Shown here one piece after another: positions 3,087 through 18,752 of a DNA stretch of 20,424 nucleotides. The DNA comes from a virus. The notes under the pieces are model-generated. The model ran no database searches, had not been told where the DNA came from, and was given only the letters and a program-made list of their open reading frames with translations. A program made the translations under genes and the position numbers. Every line of letters starts with the position of its first letter. Position 1 is the first letter of the stretch. Location of the stretch: positions 1 to 20,424 of the IMG/VR virus record IMGVR_UViG_3300008448_000858; one strand, 5' to 3'.

Positions 3087-3364
3087 TATTAACTTTAATA
3101 CTTTTAGGTTTGATGGTCGTGGTCTTAGGATACACGACCTTTAATCTTCTTAGGAAAAATGAAAAACAAGAAGACATCTTAGCAGGTTACATGACCTACC
3201 TAAACAAAATCTCAGACACTATTGAAATGGCTGAAAAGAAATTAATGGAAGTAGACGCTAAAGGTAGTTTTAAATCAGATGATGAAATTGGATTTTTCTT
3301 TGAACAAATTAAAACAATTCAAACAGCGTTAAATTCTTTTGTTATTAAAAATATTTCAAAGTAA
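3083..3364 (+). CDS. Small single-pass membrane protein with coiled-coil tail
   Basis: 93-residue protein starting inside the stop of the HD hydrolase (ATGA overlap). Residues about 2-22 form one hydrophobic helix (LTLILLGLMVVVLGYTTFNL) followed by a basic Arg-Lys stop, so the tail should face the cytoplasm. The rest is helical and amphipathic, with a short acidic segment FKSDDEIGFFFEQIKTIQ at about 63-80. I recall this S-D-D-E-[IV]-G-x-x-F pattern from small proteins of other marine T4-like phages, where it also lacks a known function; that memory is not a database check. Its place between an enzyme and the late sigma factor suggests a conserved accessory role. It shares a TAATG junction with the sigma gene. 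Confidence 0.7.
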   Translation: MILTLILLGLMVVVLGYTTFNLLRKNEKQEDILAGYMTYLNKISDTIEMAEKKLMEVDAKGSFKSDDEIGFFFEQIKTIQTALNSFVIKNISK

Positions 3365-4074
3365 TGGAAGAGGTAGTTGTAAAAAAGAAAAAGAAAGGCA
3401 TACAGTACTTTACTCAAGATACTGAGGATGCTATCATTCTGTATAACAATACAACTGATTTTGAGTTAAAAAGTAGATTATACAATGATAGAATTCATTA
3501 TGCCTTTTTTAAACTTACCGAAAATATTATCCATACGTTTAAATTTTATTATACTGAGGTAGATAATATTGAGGATTTACAACATGAAGTAATCACTTTC
3601 CTTTTAACTAAAATTCATTTATTTAATCCAGAAAGAGGAGCTAAAGCATATTCATATTTTGGTACTATTGTTAAACGTTATTTAATTCTTTCAAACCAAA
3701 AAAATTATAAAAAACGTATTGATACTTTGCCTATTGAAACATTAGAGGAAGATGAAAACCATTCTTATGATATTGAAGAGTCTCCTTATAATGAACGTTT
3801 ATCTATGTTTATAGATGAATATGTAGAACATTGTACTAAATATATTTATGATTTATTTCCTAAAGAATATGATGCTCAAATAGCAGATGCTATTCTTGAG
3901 TTATTCCGTAAACGAGAATTTTTAGATGTTTTTAATAAAAAAGCACTTTACATTTATATCCGTGAAATCATAGATGTTAAAACTCCTAAGATTACAAAGA
4001 TAGCTAATCAACTCTATGATATTTTTAAAGAAGGTTATGTATTTTATTTAGAACACGGATATACAAAGTTTTAG
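3364..4074 (+). CDS. Late-transcription sigma factor, T4 gp55-like
   Basis: 236-residue protein with a sigma-70 region 2-like core. Residues about 44-110 contain an amphipathic helix (FFKLTENIIHTFKFYY), an acidic NIEDLQHEVITFLLTKI segment and the RGAKAYSYFGTIVKRYLI segment near 91-108, where region 2.3/2.4 residues would melt and read a -10 element. No region 4 helix-turn-helix is evident. This is expected of gp55-type late sigma factors, which recognise only a short AT-rich -10 box and rely on clamp and coactivator proteins. T4 gp55 ends in a hydrophobic clamp-binding peptide; here the end is EGYVFYLEHGYTKF, aromatic but not obviously the same motif. It sits immediately upstream of the virion genes, several of which are preceded by TATTTATAA motifs. 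Assignment is by region 2 pattern and context. Confidence 0.75.
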   Translation: MEEVVVKKKKKGIQYFTQDTEDAIILYNNTTDFELKSRLYNDRIHYAFFKLTENIIHTFKFYYTEVDNIEDLQHEVITFLLTKIHLFNPERGAKAYSYFGTIVKRYLILSNQKNYKKRIDTLPIETLEEDENHSYDIEESPYNERLSMFIDEYVEHCTKYIYDLFPKEYDAQIADAILELFRKREFLDVFNKKALYIYIREIIDVKTPKITKIANQLYDIFKEGYVFYLEHGYTKF

Positions 4075-6886: not shown

Positions 6887-7228
6887 ATGAAACCATCAGA
6901 TTTTAAAAAAATGATCAAAGAAGCAGTAAAGGAAGCTATTCAAGAAGAATTGAAAGATATTCTATTGGAAGCTGTTCGTGCTCCTAAGACAATTGTTACA
7001 GAGTCAATTAGAGATACTTATGCTCAACCTCATCTTTCAAAACCAAAACAACTAACACCTCAAGAAAGACAAGCAATGTTTGGAGGTATTTTAGAAGAAA
7101 TGCAAGGTGGTGGAGCAGCTACTTCAGCTTATGCTGGTGAATTTAAACCTCAGTCTGTAGATCCTAATGGGGCTTTACCTGAAGGTAGTGTTGGATTAGA
7201 TCAAATAATGAATTTATTAAATAAATAA
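6887..7228 (+). CDS. Small hypothetical virion-region protein
   Basis: 113-residue protein that I cannot assign. Residues 1-33 form a charged amphipathic helix (MKPSDFKKMIKEAVKEAIQE and a second EELKDILLEAV turn), a pattern often seen in short N-terminal docking helices of phage structural proteins. The centre is Pro/Gln-rich with LTPQERQAMFGGILEEMQ near 56-73. A Gly/Ala stretch (GGGAATSAYAGEF) and a C-terminal helix SVGLDQIMNLLNK follow. It ends in a TAATG junction with gp25, and its position among baseplate genes suggests a minor structural or assembly role. A minus-strand frame across its end is a shadow of this gene and gp25. Confidence 0.7.
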   Translation: MKPSDFKKMIKEAVKEAIQEELKDILLEAVRAPKTIVTESIRDTYAQPHLSKPKQLTPQERQAMFGGILEEMQGGGAATSAYAGEFKPQSVDPNGALPEGSVGLDQIMNLLNK

Positions 7229-7635
7229 TGGCGTTTGGAGCTAAAAAAATATTTCCTGTAGACTTAAAACCTGGCACTGCTGTTGGGGTGGCTCTACCTT
7301 TTAATGCTCCTGCTGTTTTTCGTTCAACATACACTACTAAAGAAGCTATTAAGAATAACTTAATTAATTTCTTTTTGACTAACCAAACCGAAAGATATTT
7401 AAATCCTACTTTTGGAGCCAATTTAAGAGCTTTTATTTTTCAACAAATTGCTGTTGGAAATTTAGAAAGTTTAAAACAAAATATACAACAACAATTAAGT
7501 ACTTATTTTCCTAATGTTAATGTAGCAAGTTTAAATATTGACTCTATTAATGACCTTAACCAAGTGAATATTGAATTAACATACAATGTAATTGACACTG
7601 GTATATCTGATAACATTAATATTACCTTTACATAA
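7228..7635 (+). CDS. 25: Baseplate wedge protein gp25 (GPW/gp25 family)
   Basis: 135-residue member of the gp25/P2 gpW family, the small wedge component conserved in contractile tails, type VI secretion (TssE) and R-type pyocins, where it helps the baseplate start sheath polymerisation. The family core is visible: TTKEAIKNNLINFFLTNQTE, directly followed by RYLNPTFGANLRAFIFQQ (about residues 35-72). The Leu-Thr-x-x-x-E-R-x-x-x-P-x-F-G pattern is the gp25 hallmark. A helix and a C-terminal beta pair (VNIELTYNVIDTG) follow. Length is normal for the family. It lies directly before gp6 with a TAATG junction; the same gp25-then-gp6 (W-then-J) order occurs in many contractile phages, and the products assemble in the same wedge. 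Confidence 0.9.
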   Translation: MAFGAKKIFPVDLKPGTAVGVALPFNAPAVFRSTYTTKEAIKNNLINFFLTNQTERYLNPTFGANLRAFIFQQIAVGNLESLKQNIQQQLSTYFPNVNVASLNIDSINDLNQVNIELTYNVIDTGISDNINITFT

Positions 7636-9494
7636 TGGCTAATAAAAAAAACATACAATACATAAATAAAGATTTTACAGAATTAAGAGCTAGTCTTATT
7701 GACTATGCTAAAACTTATTTCCCAAACACATATACAGACTTTAGTCCTACCTCACCAGGTATGATGTTTATGGAAATGGCCGCTTATGTTGGTGATGTTT
7801 TATCTTTCTATATGGATAACCAAATCCAAGAAAACTTTTTACAATACGCTAGACAACCTAATAATTTGTATGAGTTAGCTTATATGTTTGGTTATAAGCC
7901 TAATGTAACTCAAGTAGCTACTACTATTGTTGATTTTTATCAACAAATACCAGCTACTGGACCTACATCAAGTCGAGTACCTGATTTTAGTTATTCCCTT
8001 TTTGTACCCGCGAATTCAAATGTGACCTCAACTTCTAATGCATCTATATCTTTTCTAATTGAAGATCCTGTAGACTTTTCAGTCTCAAGTTCAGGTGACC
8101 CAACTGAAATTACAGTCTATGAAGTTGATGGAAGTGGTACTCCTTTATATTTTCTTTTAAAGAAATCAAGAAAAGCAATATCTGCTAACATAAACACTGT
8201 ACCTTTTAGTTTTGGTGCTCCAGTTCAATTTTCAACTGTAGACATTAATGATGATAAAATTATTGGTATTTTGGATATTATTGATACTGATGGAAATGAA
8301 TGGTATGAAGTAGATTATTTAGGTCAAGAAATGATTTTTAATTCTATTAAAAATACAAATGTTAATGACCCTAATTTATCTCAATATGCTGGTGATACTC
8401 CTTATATTTTAAAATTAGAAAAAATCCAACGTAGATTTGCTACTCGTGTTATTAATACTGGATCTTTACAATTACAATTTGGAGCAGGTACAGCAGATGA
8501 TACAGATGAGGAAATCACTCCAAATCCAAACAATGTAGGTATTGGTTTACCTTTTGAACAAGATAAATTAACAACTGCTTATTCACCTGAAAATTTCTTA
8601 TTTACTAAAACATATGGTATAGCCCCTTCCCAGACAACTTTAAATGTTAGATATCTAACAGGCGGAGGAGTAGAAGCAAACGTACCGGCTAATGATTTAG
8701 CCACTTTAAACTCTACCATTACTTTCTTAAACACAGGTTTAGCAACTGACACTGCTAATTATGTATTTGCTAGTTTAGCAGTTACTAATCCAGCGGCCGC
8801 TGATGGAGGTGGTGATGGAGATACAATTGAAGAAATTAGACAAAACTCTTCAGCTAATTTTGCTACTCAATTACGTAACGTAACTCAAAATGATTATTTA
8901 GTAAGAGCACTTTCAATGCCTGCTAGATATGGAGTTGTTTCTAAAGCATATATTGAGCCTACTAAAGCACAATCTATTTCAGCTGGTGAGTCTCAATCAG
9001 TATTGGATTTATATATTTTATCATACAATGTAAATAACCAACTAACAACTACTTCTTTAGCTTTAAAACAGAATGTTATAACTTATCTTTCTCAATATAG
9101 AATGGTAAATGATTCTGTAACAATTAAAGATGCCTTTATTATTAATATTGGAGTAAATTTTGATATTATTGTTTTACCTAACTTTAATAGTAATGAAGTA
9201 TTAACAAGATGTATCTTAGCTTTACAAGAATATTTTGCTATTGATAGATGGCAAATTAATCAACCTATTGTTTTAAGAGACATTTATATTCTTTTAGATA
9301 GAATTGAAGGTGTACAAACTGTTAAGACAATTAACATTACTAATTTAGTAGGAGAAAGTTTAGGGTATAGCAAATACGCTTATGATATAAACGGAGCCAC
9401 AGCAGATAATGTGGTTTATCCCTCATTAGACCCGTCTATATTTGAAGTAAAATACCCTAACCAGGACATCCAAGGAAGAGTAGTACCTTTATAA
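7635..9494 (+). CDS. 6: Baseplate wedge protein gp6 (Baseplate_J family)
   Basis: 619-residue wedge protein of the gp6/P2 gpJ family, which forms the inner baseplate ring and changes shape when the tail contracts. The N-terminus is diagnostic of T4-type gp6: NIQYINKDFTELRASLIDYA, FPNTYTDFSPTSPGMMFMEM and AAYVGDVLSFYMDNQIQENF within residues 6-74. The middle is beta-rich. The Baseplate_J region follows with TIEEIRQNSSANFATQLRNV and TQNDYLVRALSMPARYGVVS (about 395-434), and later FAIDRWQINQPIVLRDIYIL. T4 gp6 is of similar size. A short TTTATAATAAAA motif spans the stop and the gap to the next gene. This is the clearest evidence that the tail is contractile. Confidence 0.93.
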   Translation: MANKKNIQYINKDFTELRASLIDYAKTYFPNTYTDFSPTSPGMMFMEMAAYVGDVLSFYMDNQIQENFLQYARQPNNLYELAYMFGYKPNVTQVATTIVDFYQQIPATGPTSSRVPDFSYSLFVPANSNVTSTSNASISFLIEDPVDFSVSSSGDPTEITVYEVDGSGTPLYFLLKKSRKAISANINTVPFSFGAPVQFSTVDINDDKIIGILDIIDTDGNEWYEVDYLGQEMIFNSIKNTNVNDPNLSQYAGDTPYILKLEKIQRRFATRVINTGSLQLQFGAGTADDTDEEITPNPNNVGIGLPFEQDKLTTAYSPENFLFTKTYGIAPSQTTLNVRYLTGGGVEANVPANDLATLNSTITFLNTGLATDTANYVFASLAVTNPAAADGGGDGDTIEEIRQNSSANFATQLRNVTQNDYLVRALSMPARYGVVSKAYIEPTKAQSISAGESQSVLDLYILSYNVNNQLTTTSLALKQNVITYLSQYRMVNDSVTIKDAFIINIGVNFDIIVLPNFNSNEVLTRCILALQEYFAIDRWQINQPIVLRDIYILLDRIEGVQTVKTINITNLVGESLGYSKYAYDINGATADNVVYPSLDPSIFEVKYPNQDIQGRVVPL

Positions 9495-9503
9495 TAAAAC
9501 GAA

Positions 9504-10649
9504 ATGGCTGTATTAAAAATATTCCCCGAAAAAGACACAACATTATACTCTTTATTCCCTAATATGAATACAGGGTTAGATGAGATAGTTGAAGCTACTC
9601 TTACAACTTTTGCTTATTCTGATCCTAACCCCCAAACAAGTAGATTTTTAATTAAATTTGCTGATGAAGACATAACAGCTGCTTTTGACCCAATGCCTGA
9701 TAATATCTATCAAAGCGGAAGTTGGAATGCTATATTACAATGTTGGGTTTCTACAGTCACAGGATTAAATATTACTACTTCAGTTGATTGTTTCCCTGCT
9801 GCCCAAGAATGGGGAATGGGTACAGGACGTTACTTAGATGATCCTATTTCAACAGATGGTGCTAGTTGGATCTGGGCTGACTACTCAGGTAGCAATCAAT
9901 GGATTATTCCTCCAGTTGCTGGTGCTACATCATCATTTACATCTTCTGTTCCTTCAGGAGGAGGCACTTGGTATACAGGATCTCAATATACAGCGTCTGT
10001 AACTTTTAGTTATAGAACAGATAAAGATCTTAATTTAAATGTAACTAACACTCTTAGAGCTTGGACAACAGGTTCTGGGTCTGTACCTCTTACAAAATTA
10101 CCTAACCATGGTTTCTTATTAAAACAAAGACAAGAATTTGTTAATAATAAAAACTATCAACCGGAATTAAAATATTATTCTGTTGATACTAATACTATTT
10201 ACCCTCCAGCTTTACAAATTAGTTGGTTTGATTTTTCTTGGAATACAGGGTCATCAACTCAAACAATATTAAATACACTTCCTGCTACAATTAACTTAGC
10301 AGATAATCCTGGTGTTTTCTATAGCCAGAGTATAAACAGATTTAGAGTTACTGCTCGTCCTGAATACCCAATTCAATTATGGCAAACATCTTCAGTATAT
10401 ACAAACAATTTCTATTTACCTTCAGGTTCATCAACTTGGGCTATTAAAGATTTAGAAACTAATGAATATATAGTTGATTTTGATAATAGCTATACTCAGA
10501 TTAGTGCGGATGCTACTTCAAGTTATTTTGATGTTTATATGGATTTCTTACAACCTGAAAGATATTATAACATTTTAATTAAAACTACTTTAAATGGTTC
10601 AACAATAGTATTTAACAATCAATATTACTTTAAAGTTATTAATGGATAA
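9504..10649 (+). CDS. Baseplate/tail adhesion protein with DNRLRE-like domain
   Basis: 381-residue beta-rich virion protein. Residues about 5-245 show the order of features of a DNRLRE (CBM96-like) jelly-roll module, known from secreted and surface carbohydrate-associated proteins: FPEKDTTLYSLFPNMNTGLD at 7-26, a strand SRFLIKF at 46-52, CFPAAQEWGMGTG at 96-108, DLNLNVTNTLRAW at 175-187, LPNHGFLLKQ at 199-208 and PPALQISWFDFSW at 234-246. Residues about 250-381 look like one or two further beta-sandwich domains ending in YFDVYMDFLQPERYYNILIK. It follows gp6 and precedes a large wedge/fibre-like protein, so a peripheral baseplate protein that may touch host glycans fits. The DNRLRE reading is from pattern only. 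Confidence 0.75.
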   Translation: MAVLKIFPEKDTTLYSLFPNMNTGLDEIVEATLTTFAYSDPNPQTSRFLIKFADEDITAAFDPMPDNIYQSGSWNAILQCWVSTVTGLNITTSVDCFPAAQEWGMGTGRYLDDPISTDGASWIWADYSGSNQWIIPPVAGATSSFTSSVPSGGGTWYTGSQYTASVTFSYRTDKDLNLNVTNTLRAWTTGSGSVPLTKLPNHGFLLKQRQEFVNNKNYQPELKYYSVDTNTIYPPALQISWFDFSWNTGSSTQTILNTLPATINLADNPGVFYSQSINRFRVTARPEYPIQLWQTSSVYTNNFYLPSGSSTWAIKDLETNEYIVDFDNSYTQISADATSSYFDVYMDFLQPERYYNILIKTTLNGSTIVFNNQYYFKVING

Positions 10650-10999
10650 TGTCTGAAACTATACAATTAAATAAACAAGTATATGTAAAACCCCAATATG
10701 AAAGGGTTATTGATACTTCTTTTACTCAATTAGTTCAACCACCACCAGTAGCTCCTACCTCAATACCTGCTATAACAGTAGCAGAATTTTTTCAAAATTA
10801 TCAAGAAATATTTTTCCAAATACCTAAATTTGGAAGTGTAAATTCTCATGAGTACCTTATACAAACGAGCCAAGGTTACATAGGTGGTAATCAAGCTGAT
10901 GATGGTACTATACAAGCTTTAATTGATGAAATAACTCAATTAAGACAAGAAAACTTAGACCTACAACAACAAATTTTAACAGGAAGTCTACCAATATAA
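10649..10999 (+). CDS. Small baseplate-region protein with C-terminal coiled coil
   Basis: 116-residue protein of unknown function between two large structural genes. The N-terminus is extended and Pro-rich (VQPPPVAPTSIPAITV near 29-44). It then has VAEFFQNYQEIFFQIPKFGS at 44-63 and SHEYLIQTSQGYIG at 66-79. The last 30 residues form a Gln/Leu heptad helix (IQALIDEITQLRQENLDLQQ then QIL), suggesting oligomerisation, probably a trimer or dimer. Such a short adaptor may join the gp6/wedge layer to the peripheral protein encoded next, but this is inference. The start overlaps the previous stop (TAATG), and one base separates its stop from the next ATG. Confidence 0.75.
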   Translation: MSETIQLNKQVYVKPQYERVIDTSFTQLVQPPPVAPTSIPAITVAEFFQNYQEIFFQIPKFGSVNSHEYLIQTSQGYIGGNQADDGTIQALIDEITQLRQENLDLQQQILTGSLPI

Positions 11000-11000
11000 A

Positions 11001-14000
11001 ATGAATAGAATAGTAAATATCAATTCAATTAACCCTGAAACATTTGAACTTCAAACATATTCTGTTGAAGATAGTTCTCTTATTGCTTCCTTTGAGGTAG
11101 AAACTTCATTTAATCCATCTATAGATAAAGTTGAGTATTTTATTTATGATTTAAATGGTCAAATAGTTTATAGTAATGTTAATGGTTATCCTAACTATTC
11201 ATTAGTTAATAACACCTTAACCCTTGATCCTGTACAAGATTTAACTCAACAAGGATTTAATAATGGACAATATAATACTGTCTATAATTTTGTAAGCCCT
11301 AAACTTTCATCATCACCTACTTTCCCTTATTTTATTTCAGAAATAAGTTCAGACGGTACTGAAGTAAGATTAGATACTACAATTATACCTAATCAACAGG
11401 TAATTTCTTCTTCATTAGAATTAATAAATAGTATTAATACTACTACAGGAAGTTATTATGATTTTTATTTAGATTTTGGAGATAATAATTTATTAATTGC
11501 TGTTAATGCTTTACTTGATACTTCAAGTATTGATAACCCTACAGTGTTAATTAAGTTATATGAACCATTACCATCTTTATTTCCATTACAAACTCAATGT
11601 TGGGTTGTTACTCAAACAGCTAACTCTATAGCTTATAACATTGATATTAATTATGTTTTTGATAATTTAGATAACAATGTTTATTTAAAAGGTCCTAACT
11701 ATAATTTAAGCTTATCAGATCAAATAAACAATTCAACTGATTATATTAACTATAGTAATTTAAAAAATGCTACTAGTTCTTATAGCCAGGGAACAGGTAG
11801 TTTTAACTACCAATTAAATAATATTTTAGCTCAAACAGGAATAAACATTAATGTTGATTATTCTGAATATTCTAACTTTATACATTTTTCTTCTGCTTTA
11901 ACTAGATTAGAAAATTTTTATTATAAATTAGGATTATTAGAAGAATACACATATAGTGCTAGTTTATCAAACATTCCTTCAAGTGGTTCTTATTATGTTT
12001 CTTCAAGTAATATAGTTTATCAAAATAAAATTGATGAAATTATTACTACTTTTGACTCATATGAATATTATCTTTACTATACTTCAGGATCTACATCTTG
12101 GCCTAAAACAAATAGTAACCCACCATATATAAATGTTTCAACTACTTCAACAGCTGGTTTAAACTTTTTAGCTACCCAATCATTAGTAGCTGAAGAATAT
12201 GACCTTGAAAATAACGATGCTTTAGTTTTAGCTATACCTTCTTACATTAGAGAGGATAGTGAAAATGCTAATTATGAGTTATTTGTTGAGATGATAGGTC
12301 AAATGTTTGATAATGTTTTCTTATATTTACAAAACATTACTACTAAATTTGACGCTGATAATAGATTAAATTATGGTGTTTCAAAAGATTTAGTAGCTGA
12401 TATTTTAAGAGATGCTGGTATAACAATATATCAAAATAATTTCTCATCTAATGATTTATATCAAGCTTTATTAGGTATAACTCCATCAGGTAGTTTATAT
12501 AATTTACCTTATACAACAACTCAATACCCTGTACCTTCTGATTCTTTCCTTGATTATATAACAAATTATGTTACTGCTTCTTCTACCTCATCTTTATACC
12601 CTACAGATGATATAAATAAAGAAACATATAAACGTATTTATCATAACTTACCTTTATTATTAAAGAAAAAAGGATCAGTAGCAGGTTTAAGAGATTTAAT
12701 TACTACTTATGGTATCCCTGATACTGTTTTAAGAATTAATGAGTTTGGAGGTAAAGATAAAAATATAAATAGCTATGATAACTGGCAAGATGAATATAAT
12801 TATTCATTCTATACTAGTGGTTCATCTTATATAAGTTCATCATTTGAATTAAACACATTATGGGGAGCTACAGGTGATGTTCCTAGAGCTGTTGAATTTA
12901 GATTTAAAACAGATGGTTTACCAACTAATACAGCTTCAATTAGTAATGTAACTTTATTTGAAGCAATAGGATTAGTTCTTGAACAAAGTATCTTATCTTT
13001 AAGATATACAGGCTCAGGATATGTAAGTGCCTCTTACTCAGGTTCAATCCCTAGTCCTTATAATGAGTATGCTATATTAGATTTTGTTCCTGATAGAAAT
13101 AACCCAACAATTTCATCTAGTATTTATTTACCTTTTTATGATGGAGGATGGTGGTCAGTCTTAGTAAATACAGACAGTACTACAGGCTTTACTTTATATG
13201 CTGCTAACAAAAATTATGATGGAGAAGATGGAAACACAGTTAGTTTCCAAGCCTCATCTTCAGTGACCGCTGCCCAAACAATTTGGAATGCTACAAACAC
13301 TATATATTTTGGTAGAGAGGTATTTAATGCTACTCCTTTATTTACTGGTTCGTTCCAAGAAATTAGATATTATTCTCAACCAATAACTAAAGATAATTTT
13401 GATTCTTATGTTATGAATCCTTACTCTATTGAGTCAAGTGAATTCTTAGCATTTAGAGCTTCATTAGGAGGAGAACTATACACTGGTTCAAATTCAATCC
13501 ATCCTAAAGTAACAGGTTCTTGGGTTGCTACATCATCTTTTGCTTCAAATAGTGTTTTTAATTTTAGTGGAAGTTATTCTTGGGTTCCTAACACTGAAGT
13601 ATTCTATTTTGATCAAGTACCAGCAGGTATTCAAAATGCTATATCTCAAAAGATAAAAACAGGAAATACTGTTTTACCTTATAGTAGTAGTTTAGCTAAC
13701 GTTCCTGATGCTAACGTTTTATCTCCTTTTAGATCTATTCAACAACAATTTCCAGCTAGTGAAAGTTATACTAGAGATATTGATTATGTTGAAATAGCTT
13801 TTTCACCTCAAAATGAAATTAATGAAGATATAAATTCTCAATTTGGTTATTTTAACATTGGTGATGTAATTGGAGATCCTAGATTTCAATCTTCATCTTT
13901 AGATTATTATCCTGATTTAGAAGATTTAAGTTATGCTTATTTTGAAAAATATGAATCTAACTATGATTGGAATGATTACATTAGATTAATTAAATTTTTT

Positions 14001-15524
14001 GATAACTCATTATTCAAATTATTACAAGACTTTACTCCGGCTAGAGCTAGTTTAGCAGCAGGTATTGTTATTAAAAATACATTATTAGATAGAAATAGAT
14101 ATCGTGTACCTCAAGTAACACCTTCATCTTCTATTGCTTTTATAGGTAGTGGCTCAACTAATATTCCTTATGTAGTTGAAGACCAAACTATTACTGGATC
14201 TATTGATGTTGGAAATATTGAAGGAACAAATGGTGGTTCAATGCCTGAATTATTTGGACAAACTTCCTCAGTATTCACTTATCCAGGAGCAGTAAATGTA
14301 AACCAAGTATGGTATGGGTCTACTCCGTCTTTAAGCGGCTCTGTTCCTTTTACCGAATCAGCACAATTAGAATTCTTTAATGGTGAATTAAGCGGTTCAA
14401 ATATAGTAGCTACAACAGGATTATTAAGTGATTGCAATGTAGAAATAATTCAAGTATATAGTACTGCCTCACTTCCATTACCTAAAGTATTAGCTGGTAC
14501 TTATCCTTTTACAAGTTATAGACTTAATGTAGAAAAAACATATTATATTTCATTCACTTTAAGCAATGATGCTGGAGCATCAGGTACTGGAGGAGGAAGA
14601 ATATTTTATTTTGATGAAAATGGAACTGATTATGTCATTTATGATAATGATACTTTAGCACCAGGAGCATCAGTTACTATCACTCAGTTAGAAATTAGTA
14701 ATGTTTTAGGAAATCAATTTTCTAATGCTTCATTAGGGACAAACCCAACAACATTTAATGTTCCTCTTTATTTTGTAGGATTAGATCAAAATATTATCAA
14801 TCCATCAACTCCAACTTTAACCAACTTCATTATATATGAGGCTTATATTGAGCCAGATTGTTTAGTTGTGTCTGGAGACGCCCAAGTACCTAGACCTAGT
14901 TCTAAATACATGGCTGTTGACTTTGGAGGTGAACAAATTATAGCAATTAATGAACAATCTATTTTAAGTGGAAGCGCTACTAAAGCTGCTGTTCCTGATT
15001 CTAATTATTCTACAGCTAGAATAACTAATCCTAGATACAATGGTTGTAAATTAACAACCTATGCTTCAAGATCAGCCGCGGAAACTTATGTAGAGTATTT
15101 TGGATATTTTAAATATATTGAACCAAAAACACGCATCCCTAGTCCTTTAGGTGTAGTTAATTTGTTTGCTATAATTGATATTAATGGAAAATCTACTGTA
15201 ATCAATAGTAGTGATACTCAATTAGGTACTGTTGAAGATATGTTCCTTTCAGGCTCATTAGCTACAGTTTTATTCCCTACAGTGTCTACAGGTAGTATTC
15301 TTACAGGAAGTCAATACCCAGTAGAAATACCAGCTGGATTTTATGGACCAGGTAATAATTACCCTATAACACAAAGTGCATTTAGCGTGACTCTTGACAG
15401 TTATTTCCTTAACTTATCACAATCAAGTAATGATGGAATTATCATACCAGGTAATTTTAATCCTTACTTTACTGGATCTTTTATAGAACTAGCACAAAAT
15501 GCAGGATACTTTAAAACTTTATAA
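11001..15524 (+). CDS. Giant baseplate/tail-fibre protein with gpI/gp7-like wedge motif and laminin-G-like domain
   Basis: 1507-residue protein, the largest in the window. Residues 1-400 are Ser/Asn/Tyr-rich and beta-rich. Residues about 400-590 turn helical (YELFVEMIGQMFDNVFLYLQ) and end in RIYHNLPLLLKKKGSVAGLR and TTYGIPDTVLRINEFGG at about 544-582. The K-K-G-[ST]-x-x-x-L-x-x-L-x-x-x-[YL]-G-I pattern resembles P2 tail protein I, the counterpart of T4 gp7 that pairs with gpJ/gp6. Residues about 629-810 look like a concanavalin/laminin-G domain, with AVEFRFKTDG at its start and FTGSFQEIRYYSQPITKDNF at its end. A second helical block (IRLIKFFDNSLFKLLQDFTP) lies near 993-1033. About 470 further residues are beta-rich. 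Gene order after gp6 supports a wedge role; the laminin-G part suggests surface binding. Confidence 0.75.
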   Translation: MNRIVNINSINPETFELQTYSVEDSSLIASFEVETSFNPSIDKVEYFIYDLNGQIVYSNVNGYPNYSLVNNTLTLDPVQDLTQQGFNNGQYNTVYNFVSPKLSSSPTFPYFISEISSDGTEVRLDTTIIPNQQVISSSLELINSINTTTGSYYDFYLDFGDNNLLIAVNALLDTSSIDNPTVLIKLYEPLPSLFPLQTQCWVVTQTANSIAYNIDINYVFDNLDNNVYLKGPNYNLSLSDQINNSTDYINYSNLKNATSSYSQGTGSFNYQLNNILAQTGININVDYSEYSNFIHFSSALTRLENFYYKLGLLEEYTYSASLSNIPSSGSYYVSSSNIVYQNKIDEIITTFDSYEYYLYYTSGSTSWPKTNSNPPYINVSTTSTAGLNFLATQSLVAEEYDLENNDALVLAIPSYIREDSENANYELFVEMIGQMFDNVFLYLQNITTKFDADNRLNYGVSKDLVADILRDAGITIYQNNFSSNDLYQALLGITPSGSLYNLPYTTTQYPVPSDSFLDYITNYVTASSTSSLYPTDDINKETYKRIYHNLPLLLKKKGSVAGLRDLITTYGIPDTVLRINEFGGKDKNINSYDNWQDEYNYSFYTSGSSYISSSFELNTLWGATGDVPRAVEFRFKTDGLPTNTASISNVTLFEAIGLVLEQSILSLRYTGSGYVSASYSGSIPSPYNEYAILDFVPDRNNPTISSSIYLPFYDGGWWSVLVNTDSTTGFTLYAANKNYDGEDGNTVSFQASSSVTAAQTIWNATNTIYFGREVFNATPLFTGSFQEIRYYSQPITKDNFDSYVMNPYSIESSEFLAFRASLGGELYTGSNSIHPKVTGSWVATSSFASNSVFNFSGSYSWVPNTEVFYFDQVPAGIQNAISQKIKTGNTVLPYSSSLANVPDANVLSPFRSIQQQFPASESYTRDIDYVEIAFSPQNEINEDINSQFGYFNIGDVIGDPRFQSSSLDYYPDLEDLSYAYFEKYESNYDWNDYIRLIKFFDNSLFKLLQDFTPARASLAAGIVIKNTLLDRNRYRVPQVTPSSSIAFIGSGSTNIPYVVEDQTITGSIDVGNIEGTNGGSMPELFGQTSSVFTYPGAVNVNQVWYGSTPSLSGSVPFTESAQLEFFNGELSGSNIVATTGLLSDCNVEIIQVYSTASLPLPKVLAGTYPFTSYRLNVEKTYYISFTLSNDAGASGTGGGRIFYFDENGTDYVIYDNDTLAPGASVTITQLEISNVLGNQFSNASLGTNPTTFNVPLYFVGLDQNIINPSTPTLTNFIIYEAYIEPDCLVVSGDAQVPRPSSKYMAVDFGGEQIIAINEQSILSGSATKAAVPDSNYSTARITNPRYNGCKLTTYASRSAAETYVEYFGYFKYIEPKTRIPSPLGVVNLFAIIDINGKSTVINSSDTQLGTVEDMFLSGSLATVLFPTVSTGSILTGSQYPVEIPAGFYGPGNNYPITQSAFSVTLDSYFLNLSQSSNDGIIIPGNFNPYFTGSFIELAQNAGYFKTL

Positions 15525-16236: not shown

Positions 16237-17283
16237 ATGTCTTTTGAAAGATTCACACCCGATGATTTTATAGTTAGCTCTGATGCCATTTCAGCTACAG
16301 CCTGGACAACAGGAGCTCCTACATTAATAACTTTCTTTACATCATCTACTCAAGCAGGTGGTAGTTCTGGAGCTTATTATTTAAATGTTTACCAAACATC
16401 TTCAGCTTTATCTGGCTCAGCAGTTCAATTTGCTATCGCTTTTGGTAATGCTAATGGTAGTGGTAGTGCTAACTATGATAATGCTGTTAATGGTAAATCA
16501 CCTACAGGAACTGTATTTGGTCAATGGCAAGATTTAGTTATTGGAGATGAAAATACTAACTTTACTTTTGGAGCTATTACATCATCACAATTCTTTGCTT
16601 TACCTTTAGAAAGAACTTGTTACAAAGAAGCCTTATTCTTAGGTTCCTTAACTTTGAAGTTATCAGGTAGTGAAGGTACTATTTCTTTAACAGACAATAG
16701 TAATTATGTAACAACAGTTCAATATGGAGCTGCTGGTAGAATATTTCAATTAATTACAGGATCAGCTGGAACTAGAGCAACAATTACCTCTAGAAATACA
16801 GTTGATGGATATTCAGCTACTTCAGGATCTTATGGTTGGTTATTACCAGACATTGGAACTATTATTTTAAATCCTTTAGCATTAGCTCAACCTTCAGGAA
16901 GTGGAGGTATTAATTTTGTATATAGTGGATCAGCTTCAGCTACAGGCTCTATAGTTGTTACCCCAAATACTTCTTTATATCAAGCGTTATCAGGTTCAGG
17001 TGCTTCATCATTCACAATTAACTCTCAAGAAACAATTACTTCAGATTATGTGTTTGTAAGACCTAAGAGTTCACAATTTAACTACTCAGAAAATCCTTCA
17101 TTTATTTCAGGTTCAACTGGTGAGGTTTTATACCCTCAATTTATTAATAATCCTCAAACCTATATTACAACTATTGGATTATATAATGATACAAATGAAT
17201 TATTAGCAGTTGCTAAATTGTCAAGACCTTTACCAAAAGATTTTACTAAAGAAGCTCTTGTAAGAGTTAAACTTGATTTCTAA
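16237..17283 (+). CDS. Tail structural protein, member A of a tandem pair
   Basis: 348-residue Ser/Gly/Thr-rich beta protein. The N-terminus is MSFERFTPDDFIVSSDAIS, followed by repeated short Ser-Gly strands and by TVFGQWQDLVIGDENTNFTF near 90-110 and FALPLERTCYKEALFLGSLT near 119-138. The last 71 residues (about 278-348) contain FNYSENPSFISGST and TYITTIGLYNDTNELLAVAK LSRPLP, and closely parallel the C-terminus of the next gene. The preceding ten-base gap is a run of As broken by one T, typical of a Bacteroidetes leader without Shine-Dalgarno sequence. Likely a peripheral tail or tail-tip protein; the function is unknown to me. Confidence 0.75.
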   Translation: MSFERFTPDDFIVSSDAISATAWTTGAPTLITFFTSSTQAGGSSGAYYLNVYQTSSALSGSAVQFAIAFGNANGSGSANYDNAVNGKSPTGTVFGQWQDLVIGDENTNFTFGAITSSQFFALPLERTCYKEALFLGSLTLKLSGSEGTISLTDNSNYVTTVQYGAAGRIFQLITGSAGTRATITSRNTVDGYSATSGSYGWLLPDIGTIILNPLALAQPSGSGGINFVYSGSASATGSIVVTPNTSLYQALSGSGASSFTINSQETITSDYVFVRPKSSQFNYSENPSFISGSTGEVLYPQFINNPQTYITTIGLYNDTNELLAVAKLSRPLPKDFTKEALVRVKLDF

Positions 17284-17288
17284 AATGA

Positions 17289-18308
17289 ATGGGTGCCTAC
17301 AAACAGTTTCTAGCATCGGATATAGTAGTTACTCCGCTTGAATTAAACAAATCGTTTAATTTTAGAGGGTCTGCGGCTTTAACAGGTTCAGATGTAGGTA
17401 TTGATAGACTTTTAGGTTTATGTACTAGTTCTTTATTTAATCCTTTAACTGACCCAACAACAGGTCAAAGTGGAATTCAATATCAAAGACTAGTTTATGA
17501 TTCTATTAAACACCTATACTATTCAAATTTTTTAAATTCAACAGCTAGTTTAGGTTCACCTTTAGTAACTGCTAGTTTAGTTCCTGGATCTACTCCTGCT
17601 GGTGATGTTTTAGTAGGTCCAACCTCATCGGCTGGTCGTTATTATAATTATCCCCAAACAGATTTAACTTTTGAGCATTATTTACCTCAAAATATAGATT
17701 CTACAATAGGAGTATTATCTGTTCCCTCAAAACTATATGGTAATCATATAGCTCCTAATTCATTTAGATGGACAGCTGAAAGTGGTTCAGTTTATGATGA
17801 TGGTGAAGGAAATTTAATATTTCAAACCACAGGAGAAATTTGTGGTAATATATTCTATTACCATGGAATAGCTATTATAACTAGTGATTCTCAACCTAGT
17901 GGTGATGTTTATGGGACAGCGATTTATGGTTCTTCAGTTTACGGAGCTTCAGATGCTAGTATTATTAATAATTTAGTTAATTCTTCTAATGTTACTTGTT
18001 CATTTTCATCCTCACTTACTATTTTTGAAACTCAATATAAGTGTTCAATTAGAGAAAATGAATTTAATTTTAGTCAAAACCCAACCATAACTTCAGGTAG
18101 CACAGCTAATTCAAGTTCAATTGGAACATTTTTTACTCCAGGACAATACTTATTACCTTTTGCTACTAGTTCTTATTTTCAACCTTATGTGACAACTGTA
18201 GGTTTATACAATGAACAGCAACAATTATTAGCAATAGGAAAGTTATCACAACCTCTACCTTTATCGCCTACAACAGATACTACAATACTTATAAACATAG
18301 ATAGATAA
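17289..18308 (+). CDS. Tail structural protein, member B of a tandem pair
   Basis: 339-residue protein following member A with a five-base gap. The N-terminus MGAYKQFLASDIVVTPLELN and the YQRLVYDSIKHLYYSNFL segment near 65-82 differ from member A. The last 84 residues (about 256-339) share its C-terminal module: FNFSQNPTITSGST here against FNYSENPSFISGST, then YVTTVGLYNEQQQLLAIGKL against YITTIGLYNDTNELLAVAKL, both ending in S-[RQ]-P-L-P. A Gly/Tyr/Ser-rich stretch GDVYGTAIYGSSVYGASDAS lies near 205-224. The ATG at 17285 is out of frame and runs for only about 18 codons, so 17289 is the start. Probably a virion protein attached at the same kind of site as member A through the shared C-terminus. 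Confidence 0.75.
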   Translation: MGAYKQFLASDIVVTPLELNKSFNFRGSAALTGSDVGIDRLLGLCTSSLFNPLTDPTTGQSGIQYQRLVYDSIKHLYYSNFLNSTASLGSPLVTASLVPGSTPAGDVLVGPTSSAGRYYNYPQTDLTFEHYLPQNIDSTIGVLSVPSKLYGNHIAPNSFRWTAESGSVYDDGEGNLIFQTTGEICGNIFYYHGIAIITSDSQPSGDVYGTAIYGSSVYGASDASIINNLVNSSNVTCSFSSSLTIFETQYKCSIRENEFNFSQNPTITSGSTANSSSIGTFFTPGQYLLPFATSSYFQPYVTTVGLYNEQQQLLAIGKLSQPLPLSPTTDTTILINIDR

Positions 18309-18311
18309 ATT

Positions 18312-18752
18312 ATGTGGTTATACAATGAACAAGTTATTAGCTCAATTGAGGATATGCCTCAAGGAACATTTGGTTTTGTTTATATTGTGACTCATAATCC
18401 AACCGGAATATCATATATTGGTAAAAAATCATTATTCCACAATATAAAGAAAAAACTAACAAAAAAGGAACTAGCAGAACAAACAGGACCAGGCAGGAAG
18501 TCAGCCACTCGGGTGGTAGTAAAGGAATCAGACTGGAAAACCTATTATGGATCTGCTAAACCAATTATGGAACTCATAAAAGGAGGTAAACAAGAGGAAT
18601 TTACCCGTGAGATTTTACAATTGGTTCCTAATAAAAAACTTCTTACTTACTATGAATGTAAGTACTTATTTAAATATGGGGTGTTAGAATACCCCCTAGA
18701 ATATTTTAATGATAATATTTTAGGAAAATTTTATTCCAAAGATTTTATTTAA
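18312..18752 (+). CDS. GIY-YIG-family endonuclease-like protein
   Basis: 146-residue protein with a GIY-YIG nuclease fold. FGFVYIVTHNPTGISYIGKK at 20-39 supplies the two strands, with VYI in place of GIY and Y-I-G intact at 35-37. A Lys-rich insert, EKLTKKELAEQ-like in character, follows. DWKTYYGSAKPIMELI at 74-89 and FTREILQLV at 97-105 come next, then the helix TYYECKYLFKYGVL at 112-125 with Glu115 as the presumed metal ligand. These segments also occur in small nucleases of other T4-like phages. There is no separate DNA-binding domain as in I-TevI, so it may be a resident nuclease and not a mobile homing enzyme. It sits at the border between virion and replication genes. A 6-bp hairpin follows its stop. 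Confidence 0.75.
   Translation: MWLYNEQVISSIEDMPQGTFGFVYIVTHNPTGISYIGKKSLFHNIKKKLTKKELAEQTGPGRKSATRVVVKESDWKTYYGSAKPIMELIKGGKQEEFTREILQLVPNKKLLTYYECKYLFKYGVLEYPLEYFNDNILGKFYSKDFI

Follow-up and report, generated by a model that had tools for sequence, protein, structure and literature searches.

A putative outer baseplate wedge protein with an internal laminin-G-like domain in a virus fragment from IMG/VR

Receptor-binding proteins (RBPs) attach to the outer baseplate wedge subunit BW3 (gp7, gpI) in T4, A511, pyocin and other systems (PMC10811340). In XM1, spikes are attached to a loop and to the C-terminus of the gp7 orthologue (PMC10457771). The BW3 protein of Vp4, Gp119, has two carbohydrate-binding modules (CBMs) and decorates sensitive Bacillus cereus cells; its CBM-less homologue in Deep-Blue, Gp177, gives no cell decoration (PMC11406892). 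In AlgoCIS, CBMs are found in Alg11 of the spike cage, and the gp7-like Alg12 has been called an evolutionary hotspot (PMC8894135). Described here is a 1507-residue protein encoded at positions 11001–15524 of IMG/VR record IMGVR_UViG_3300008448_000858, a virus fragment of 20,424 bases that is referred to as the window. Residue numbers are those of this protein, and all features with coordinates in the core, its insert, its C-terminal third and the baseplate genes lie on the + strand. The protein is a putative outer baseplate wedge subunit (BW3; gpI/gp7-type) with an internal laminin-G (LamG) domain, as judged from its open reading frame (ORF), relatives and alignment. The favoured explanation, held with modest confidence, is that it is the BW3 of a contractile-tailed phage, in which the hairpin loop of gpI holds a ligand-binding sandwich and to which a peripheral module is fused.

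Positions 11001–15524 form a single open frame from an ATG. The initial annotation, made from the sequence of the window, had reported a protein of this length, and the ORF is real. It is not a product of chance, because full-length relatives exist in many contigs. An assembly or gene-prediction artefact was also considered and ruled out by 99–100% relatives on independent contigs. In IMG/VR, 579 of the 600 pattern matches listed were confirmed as family members, so that the family numbers at least 579. The relatives come from many environmental assemblies. Named relatives are Flavobacterium phage immuto, Microcystis phage Mel-JY01 and one 484-kb uncultured phage, in which the protein is annotated as "hypothetical protein." Neither the protein nor its relatives had an informative match in Pfam, PHROG or NCBIfam. 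Family profiles searched against solved-structure sequences (hidden Markov model search) gave no match at E 10, and a BFVD search returned at strong E only uncharacterized or unnamed viral proteins. A CIS12 search in Bacteroidota gave few matches, mostly weak. The phage that encodes the protein is probably contractile-tailed, with a host in Bacteroidota. A contig of a Winogradskyella metagenome-assembled genome (L259) holds an entire baseplate locus with a wedge-protein version of 2172 aa, which points to a host in Flavobacteriaceae or to a phage contig binned together with that genome.

The core of the protein is highly likely to be gpI-like. It consists of a first half at residues 396–590 (12186–12770), which is helical, and a second half at residues 926–1062 (13776–14186), near the end of which some homologues stop. 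The first half contains a KG[ST]...[FY]GG motif common to P2 gpI-type proteins (residues 544–584, 12630–12752; KRIYHNLPLLLKKKGSVAGLRDLITTYGIPDTVLRINEFGG), which ranks with the best-conserved segments of the family. A profile of residues 385–600 was run against 12 complete phage genomes, including T4 and P2, with matches reported to E 10. The single match (E 0.003) fell on the KGT motif of Vibrio phage X29, within its gpI gene, and the KG-to-GG spacing, 26 residues, is equal in X29 gpI. Aligned with hhalign to a gpI alignment, the family scored 29.6; with the columns of the gpI alignment shuffled, the highest score in 400 trials was 22.3 (0/400 reached the observed score), such shuffling being a lenient null. 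About 80 EYGG-type gpI sequences aligned over 35–36 gap-free columns (P 3.3e-4 and 7.9e-4), with a score of 31.6 against 27.3 for the best of 300 shuffles. In an unfiltered hmmsearch, X29 gpI ranked at the top; single-sequence scores of this kind were not taken as evidence because other gpI and gp7 proteins ranked among the shuffled controls. An AlphaFold2 model was made of residues 385–1062 from an alignment of 67 sequences. In it, the elements are predicted to follow one another as helix, KGS, helix, strand, insert, strand, helices, strand, in agreement with gpI.

The neighborhood of the gene is that of a baseplate locus. A gp25-like sheath initiator or baseplate wedge gene lies at 7228–7635 (Pfam GPW_gp25, E 2.8e-9; PHROG 261, E 4e-15). 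It is followed at 7635–9494 by a gp6/J-like baseplate wedge gene of 619 aa, which matches PHROG 219 and 10646 "baseplate wedge subunit" (E 2e-17) and is 46% identical to the baseplate wedge protein of immuto. The initial annotation placed the 1507-aa gene two places after gp6, which proved inexact. It is the third gene after gp6, since genes for proteins of 381 aa (9504–10649) and 116 aa (10649–10999) intervene. In 16 loci checked, the order gp25, gp6, two genes, 1507-aa gene holds over whatever part of it each locus spans.

The two core blocks are, on the evidence of sequence alignment, halves of one core and not two independent domains. Distances were compared in 112 near-full-length proteins (109 excluding three named-phage copies). 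The spacing from R545 to G584 is 39 residues in 112/112. The spacing from G584 to F934 falls into two classes, about 60 residues (19 immuto-type proteins) and at least 333 (the other 93). Because it shrinks to about 60 in the immuto-type proteins, the lectin-like part is read as an insertion in one continuous core. The insertion site is predicted to be the loop after the [FY]GG strand, ahead of the next strand (YVEIAFSP in the window). The initial annotation had described a core fused to a laminin-G domain and a second helical block near residues 993–1033. The LamG domain stands, placed inside the gpI fold rather than end to end; the helices stand too, predicted at about 971–1011, as part of the one core rather than as a separate domain. 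Residues 1–395 (11001–12185) precede the core and comprise a beta-rich part (1–230) and a helical part (231–395), according to the predicted secondary structure of a LamG-less homologue. They are conserved in immuto, Mel-JY01 and LR756508.

Nine LamG-less proteins were included in a tree and form one group with support of 100/100. The insert is homologous among the LamG-bearing proteins compared, with very low identity in two distant phages. A single loss of LamG is the simplest history, because the deep Mel-JY01/LR756508 branch carries the insert. A midpoint root likewise suggests one LamG loss, with long branches that leave the root unsure. The LamG-less state as the ancestral one was considered and dropped, LamG being present in that deep branch too, with the same uncertainty about the root.

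The insert, residues 597–871 (12789–13613), is predicted to be a laminin-G/pentraxin-like beta-sandwich and is missing in immuto-type relatives. The predicted local distance difference test (pLDDT) score in the AlphaFold2 model is about 90 across the sandwich. Foldseek/VIA-align matched model residues 212–487, equivalent to about 596–871 of the window protein, to laminin-G/pentraxin folds. The top match was the laminin-G domain of PAPP-A, with Z 17.8 and a root-mean-square deviation of 3.7 Å over 208 residues. Other matches were a Bacteroides ovatus putative carbohydrate-binding protein (Z 17.4), pentraxins (15–16), and neurexin and laminin LG domains (about 13.5). The assignment of residues ~596–871 to a two-sheet jelly-roll sandwich of laminin-G/pentraxin type is well supported by this prediction. 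Pfam laminin-G and pentraxin models gave no match to three inserts at E 1, the sequences being divergent. The initial annotation had set a lectin-like domain at 629–810; its fold was borne out by structure prediction and fold search, and its limits are wider. Laminin-G and pentraxin-like domains are frequent glycan binders. The sandwich might, on that account, decorate the virion and anchor it, while free, to extracellular polysaccharide or particles, with no part in the adsorption trigger, and the occurrence of relatives in many environmental assemblies is in keeping with such a role. The domain, however, lies inside the presumed wedge core and, by analogy with T4-type baseplates, would be on the cell-facing side. 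Tethering of this kind is considered very improbable.

Exchange of the sandwich was assessed in LamG-bearing genes whose two flanks (residues 300–590 and 880–1062) each reach 88% nucleotide identity or more, 29 pairs in all. The sandwich (residues 600–800) was at least 8 points below both flanks in 8 of the 29 pairs, which amount to five comparisons. In these five, the flanks have 89–97% and the sandwich 53–79% nucleotide identity. The sandwich identities are 53–55% for L185 versus L182 and L179, 71% for L166/L168, 76% for L182/L179, 79% for L018-type/L028 and 79% for L178/L200. The drop starts at residue 600–605 and stops at about 800–890, near the domain edges. The sandwich has a median ratio of nonsynonymous to synonymous substitution rates (dN/dS) of 0.19, compared with 0.07 and 0.09 for the two core blocks and 0.28 for the variable C-terminus. 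The sandwich is thus, as far as gene comparisons can tell, an exchangeable and faster-evolving module under purifying selection. Residues 1–230 (11001–11690) have also been exchanged, with nucleotide identities of 63% for L018/L028, 77% for L159/L155 and 77% for L199/L198 against about 89–96% in the core. The sandwich region used for this comparison was picked after its fold was known. For both of these reasons, exchange supports a recognition role and does not prove it.

A docking role would fit the exchange data as well. The protein would then still be a wedge subunit of gpI/gp7 type, the sandwich would dock a fibre, a spike or a neighboring wedge protein, and exchange would track the docked partner. 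Docking on such proteins is well described: a loop and the C-terminus of the XM1 gp7 orthologue hold tail spikes (PMC10457771), RBPs generally dock on BW3 (PMC10811340), and Alg12 has a gp7-like part that has been described as a hotspot for the binding of different fibres (PMC8894135). Many residues of the sandwich are at least 90% conserved, and its dN/dS is well below 1, which would also suit a protein-docking surface. However, the nearest folds include a putative carbohydrate-binding protein and pentraxins, exchange of a domain among genes otherwise 92–97% identical is typical for ligand recognition, and immuto-type phages manage without the domain. Docking is possible and judged unlikely.

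The C-terminal third is the most variable part of the protein and is modular. Residues 1063–1155 (14187–14465) form an adaptor-like module that is a gene of its own, of 159–182 aa, in L186, L188, L193 and L201. Residues 1156–1507 (14466–15521) form a variable beta-rich module that is a gene of its own, of 637–909 aa, in several relatives. The shortest homologues stop 30 residues past R1031. In L186, L188, L193, L201 and L208 the wedge gene stops near residue 1060, and what it lacks is encoded by one or more genes that follow, with matches to residues 1067–1155 and, further on, to about 1195–1431. In L178 and L200 the break is near residue 1147. Seven relatives therefore encode the C-terminal third downstream, apart from the wedge gene, as one gene or two. 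Because sister phages encode these parts as separate proteins, the 1507-aa protein is read as a fusion in its C-terminal third, and the series is consistent with natural fission or fusion of the wedge with a peripheral module. T4 gp7 is present in one copy per wedge. If the same holds here, the fused C-terminal module would not be an ordinary trimeric fibre. Two C-terminal endings recur, NFNPxx...LAxxAG (window, L031 and L018; similar in L193) and LPxYxS...NLxxIVxNLxxKxL (L008, L009 and L017; similar in L201). Such alternative endings may reflect exchange of the tip.

Under the favoured explanation, residues 396–590 and 926–1062 would form a gpI-type core that pairs with the gp6-like protein. 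The sandwich, of about 275 residues, would sit in a loop of that core, with the strand that follows the KG[ST] helix on one side and the next core strand on the other, so that each of six wedges would bear one copy. On contact of the baseplate with the cell, the sandwich would bind a surface ligand, probably a glycan, and the wedge itself would join in adsorption. Contact with the cell surface would then act directly on the wedges, each showing a sandwich and a variable peripheral module, and so might have a part in triggering contraction. The C-terminal third would add another peripheral module, one encoded apart from the wedge in sister phages. Fibres of the separate kind are still present: immuto has downstream genes for a tail fibre and a tail spike.

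Several results weigh against this explanation. The fold of the sandwich does not by itself prove ligand binding, its dN/dS is below 1, and the domain is absent from a whole clade of phages, the immuto-type. Exchange is not unique to the sandwich, residues 1–230 and the C-terminus having been swapped too. Other such results bear on the identity of the core. The initial annotation had likened the motif to both P2 gpI and T4 gp7; the likeness to gpI is short and significant, and that to T4 gp7 did not hold up in family scans or in hhalign, where the core gave no significance against a T4 gp7 alignment. The second half of the core likewise gave no significant hhalign match to gpI. A fold search of the Protein Data Bank with a model of the LamG-less core (predicted template modelling score 0.35) returned no gp7 or gpI, and the only matches were to small beta-barrels, weak (Z ~7), at residues 105–215. 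The family models PF09684, TIGR01634, phrog_48 and phrog_964 do not match the 1507-aa protein; this is weak evidence because T4 gp7 itself fails TIGR01634. The gpI/gp7-like core that had been proposed is thus supported in part, by the motif, the predicted order of elements and the position after gp25 and gp6, and these are what wedge identity rests on, because the fold searches found no solved gp7 or gpI.

These negatives are also what would be expected if the protein were not a gpI/gp7 orthologue. It would then be some other large peripheral baseplate or fibre-network protein with a convergent KG[ST]/[FY]GG motif, and the two genes that separate it from gp6 and the match to gpI over only about 36 columns would be in keeping. 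That reading is improbable. Against it, gpI was the only site matched across the 12 phage genomes, no shuffled alignment of the 400 reached the observed score, and the KG-to-GG spacing equals that of X29 gpI. TIGR01634 and phrog_964, run over the genomes of relatives, gave no match at the wedge gene and revealed no better gpI/gp7 candidate in the relatives searched. The failed family-model match also counts for little, given that T4 gp7 behaves in the same way.

A wedge with a binding domain of its own would place host binding on the contraction trigger, a reasonable proposal that has been published for Vp4 (PMC11406892) and put forward for AlgoCIS (PMC8894135). It is proposed tentatively that, in a large family of aquatic phages, the presumed trigger holds a swappable lectin domain in its own core, so that ligand binding and triggering would be joined in one molecule. 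If so, a swap of the cassette would change host preference with the fibres untouched. In contractile tails, the route by which receptor contact reaches the sheath has long been in question. The internal swappable domain, the LamG-less sister clade and the fused or separate C-terminal module provide a natural series for testing positions of the wedge in host contact. The assignment would also aid annotation of aquatic phages, because the family is large and its named members are "hypothetical."

Other genes of the window were noted. The conserved 381-aa protein between gp6 and the 1507-aa gene is kept in 16/16 loci checked, with extra genes in some. It begins PEKDTTLYSLFPNMNTG and by eye recalls DNRLR/CBM96-like domains; a Pfam scan of it gave no match. 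The 116-aa protein encoded immediately 5′ of the 1507-aa gene has a coiled-coil-like C-terminus, for which matches to coiled-coil models are weak only, and is kept as a neighbor in most relatives. Downstream, the adjacent proteins encoded at 16237–17283 and 17289–18308 have a common C-terminal motif, YxTTxGLYNxxxxLLAxxKLSxPLP. The first of them has weak matches to DUF7209 and phrog_1215, and Mel-JY01 has four matching proteins in a row. A SegE-type GIY-YIG endonuclease gene (18312–18752; Pfam E 3e-27) lies between the structural genes and a primase gene, a position conserved in several relatives. An endolysin-type gene with peptidoglycan-binding and GH19 domains is found at 318–1148. The gene at 3364–4074 has a weak match to sigma-70 region 2, and its product may be a late sigma factor.

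Among known systems, P2 gpI, R-pyocin PA0619 (Tri2) and T4 gp7 resemble the window protein in the KG[ST] helix motif and in a strand ending in [FY]GG, as in EYGG-type gpI. This group also resembles it in gene position after gp25 and gp6/J, and T4 gp7 is likewise very large. Unlike P2 gpI, which has 176 aa, the window protein has 1507 aa, a laminin-G insert, two genes between itself and gp6, and a putative fold. XM1 gp17, a gp7 orthologue, bears receptor-binding spikes on a loop and at its C-terminus, which are the two types of place decorated here as well. It differs in having only 242 aa and in that its spikes are separate proteins, and the likeness to its loop 80–106 is by kind of place only. 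The window protein bears large domains at an internal loop of its putative core and at its C-terminus in one polypeptide. AlgoCIS, from the marine bacterium Algoriphagus, is alike in having contractile-system wedge proteins with carbohydrate-binding modules (Alg11) and a variable gp7-like part (Alg12). Its modules are in Alg11, which cages the spike, whereas the domain described here is in a putative gp7/gpI protein.

A literature search, with most subscription journals outside its scope, gave no report of a wedge with a laminin-G domain. A binding domain on the wedge is already precedented by Vp4 Gp119 (PMC11406892), a wedge-3 protein with its own carbohydrate-binding-type domains that are missing in a homologue, as the sandwich is here in the 19 immuto-type proteins. 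Vp4 Gp119 is a Herelleviridae BW3 of 831 aa with CBM16-type and Xyn10B-module-like folds, and binding was shown there. The window protein, known here from sequence, has a predicted laminin-G/pentraxin sandwich inside a putative gpI core, belongs to another phage lineage and shows cassette exchange. What is added to the precedent is a different fold, its insertion within the putative gpI core, a clade without the domain, exchange of the cassette, and C-terminal modules that are either fused or separate.

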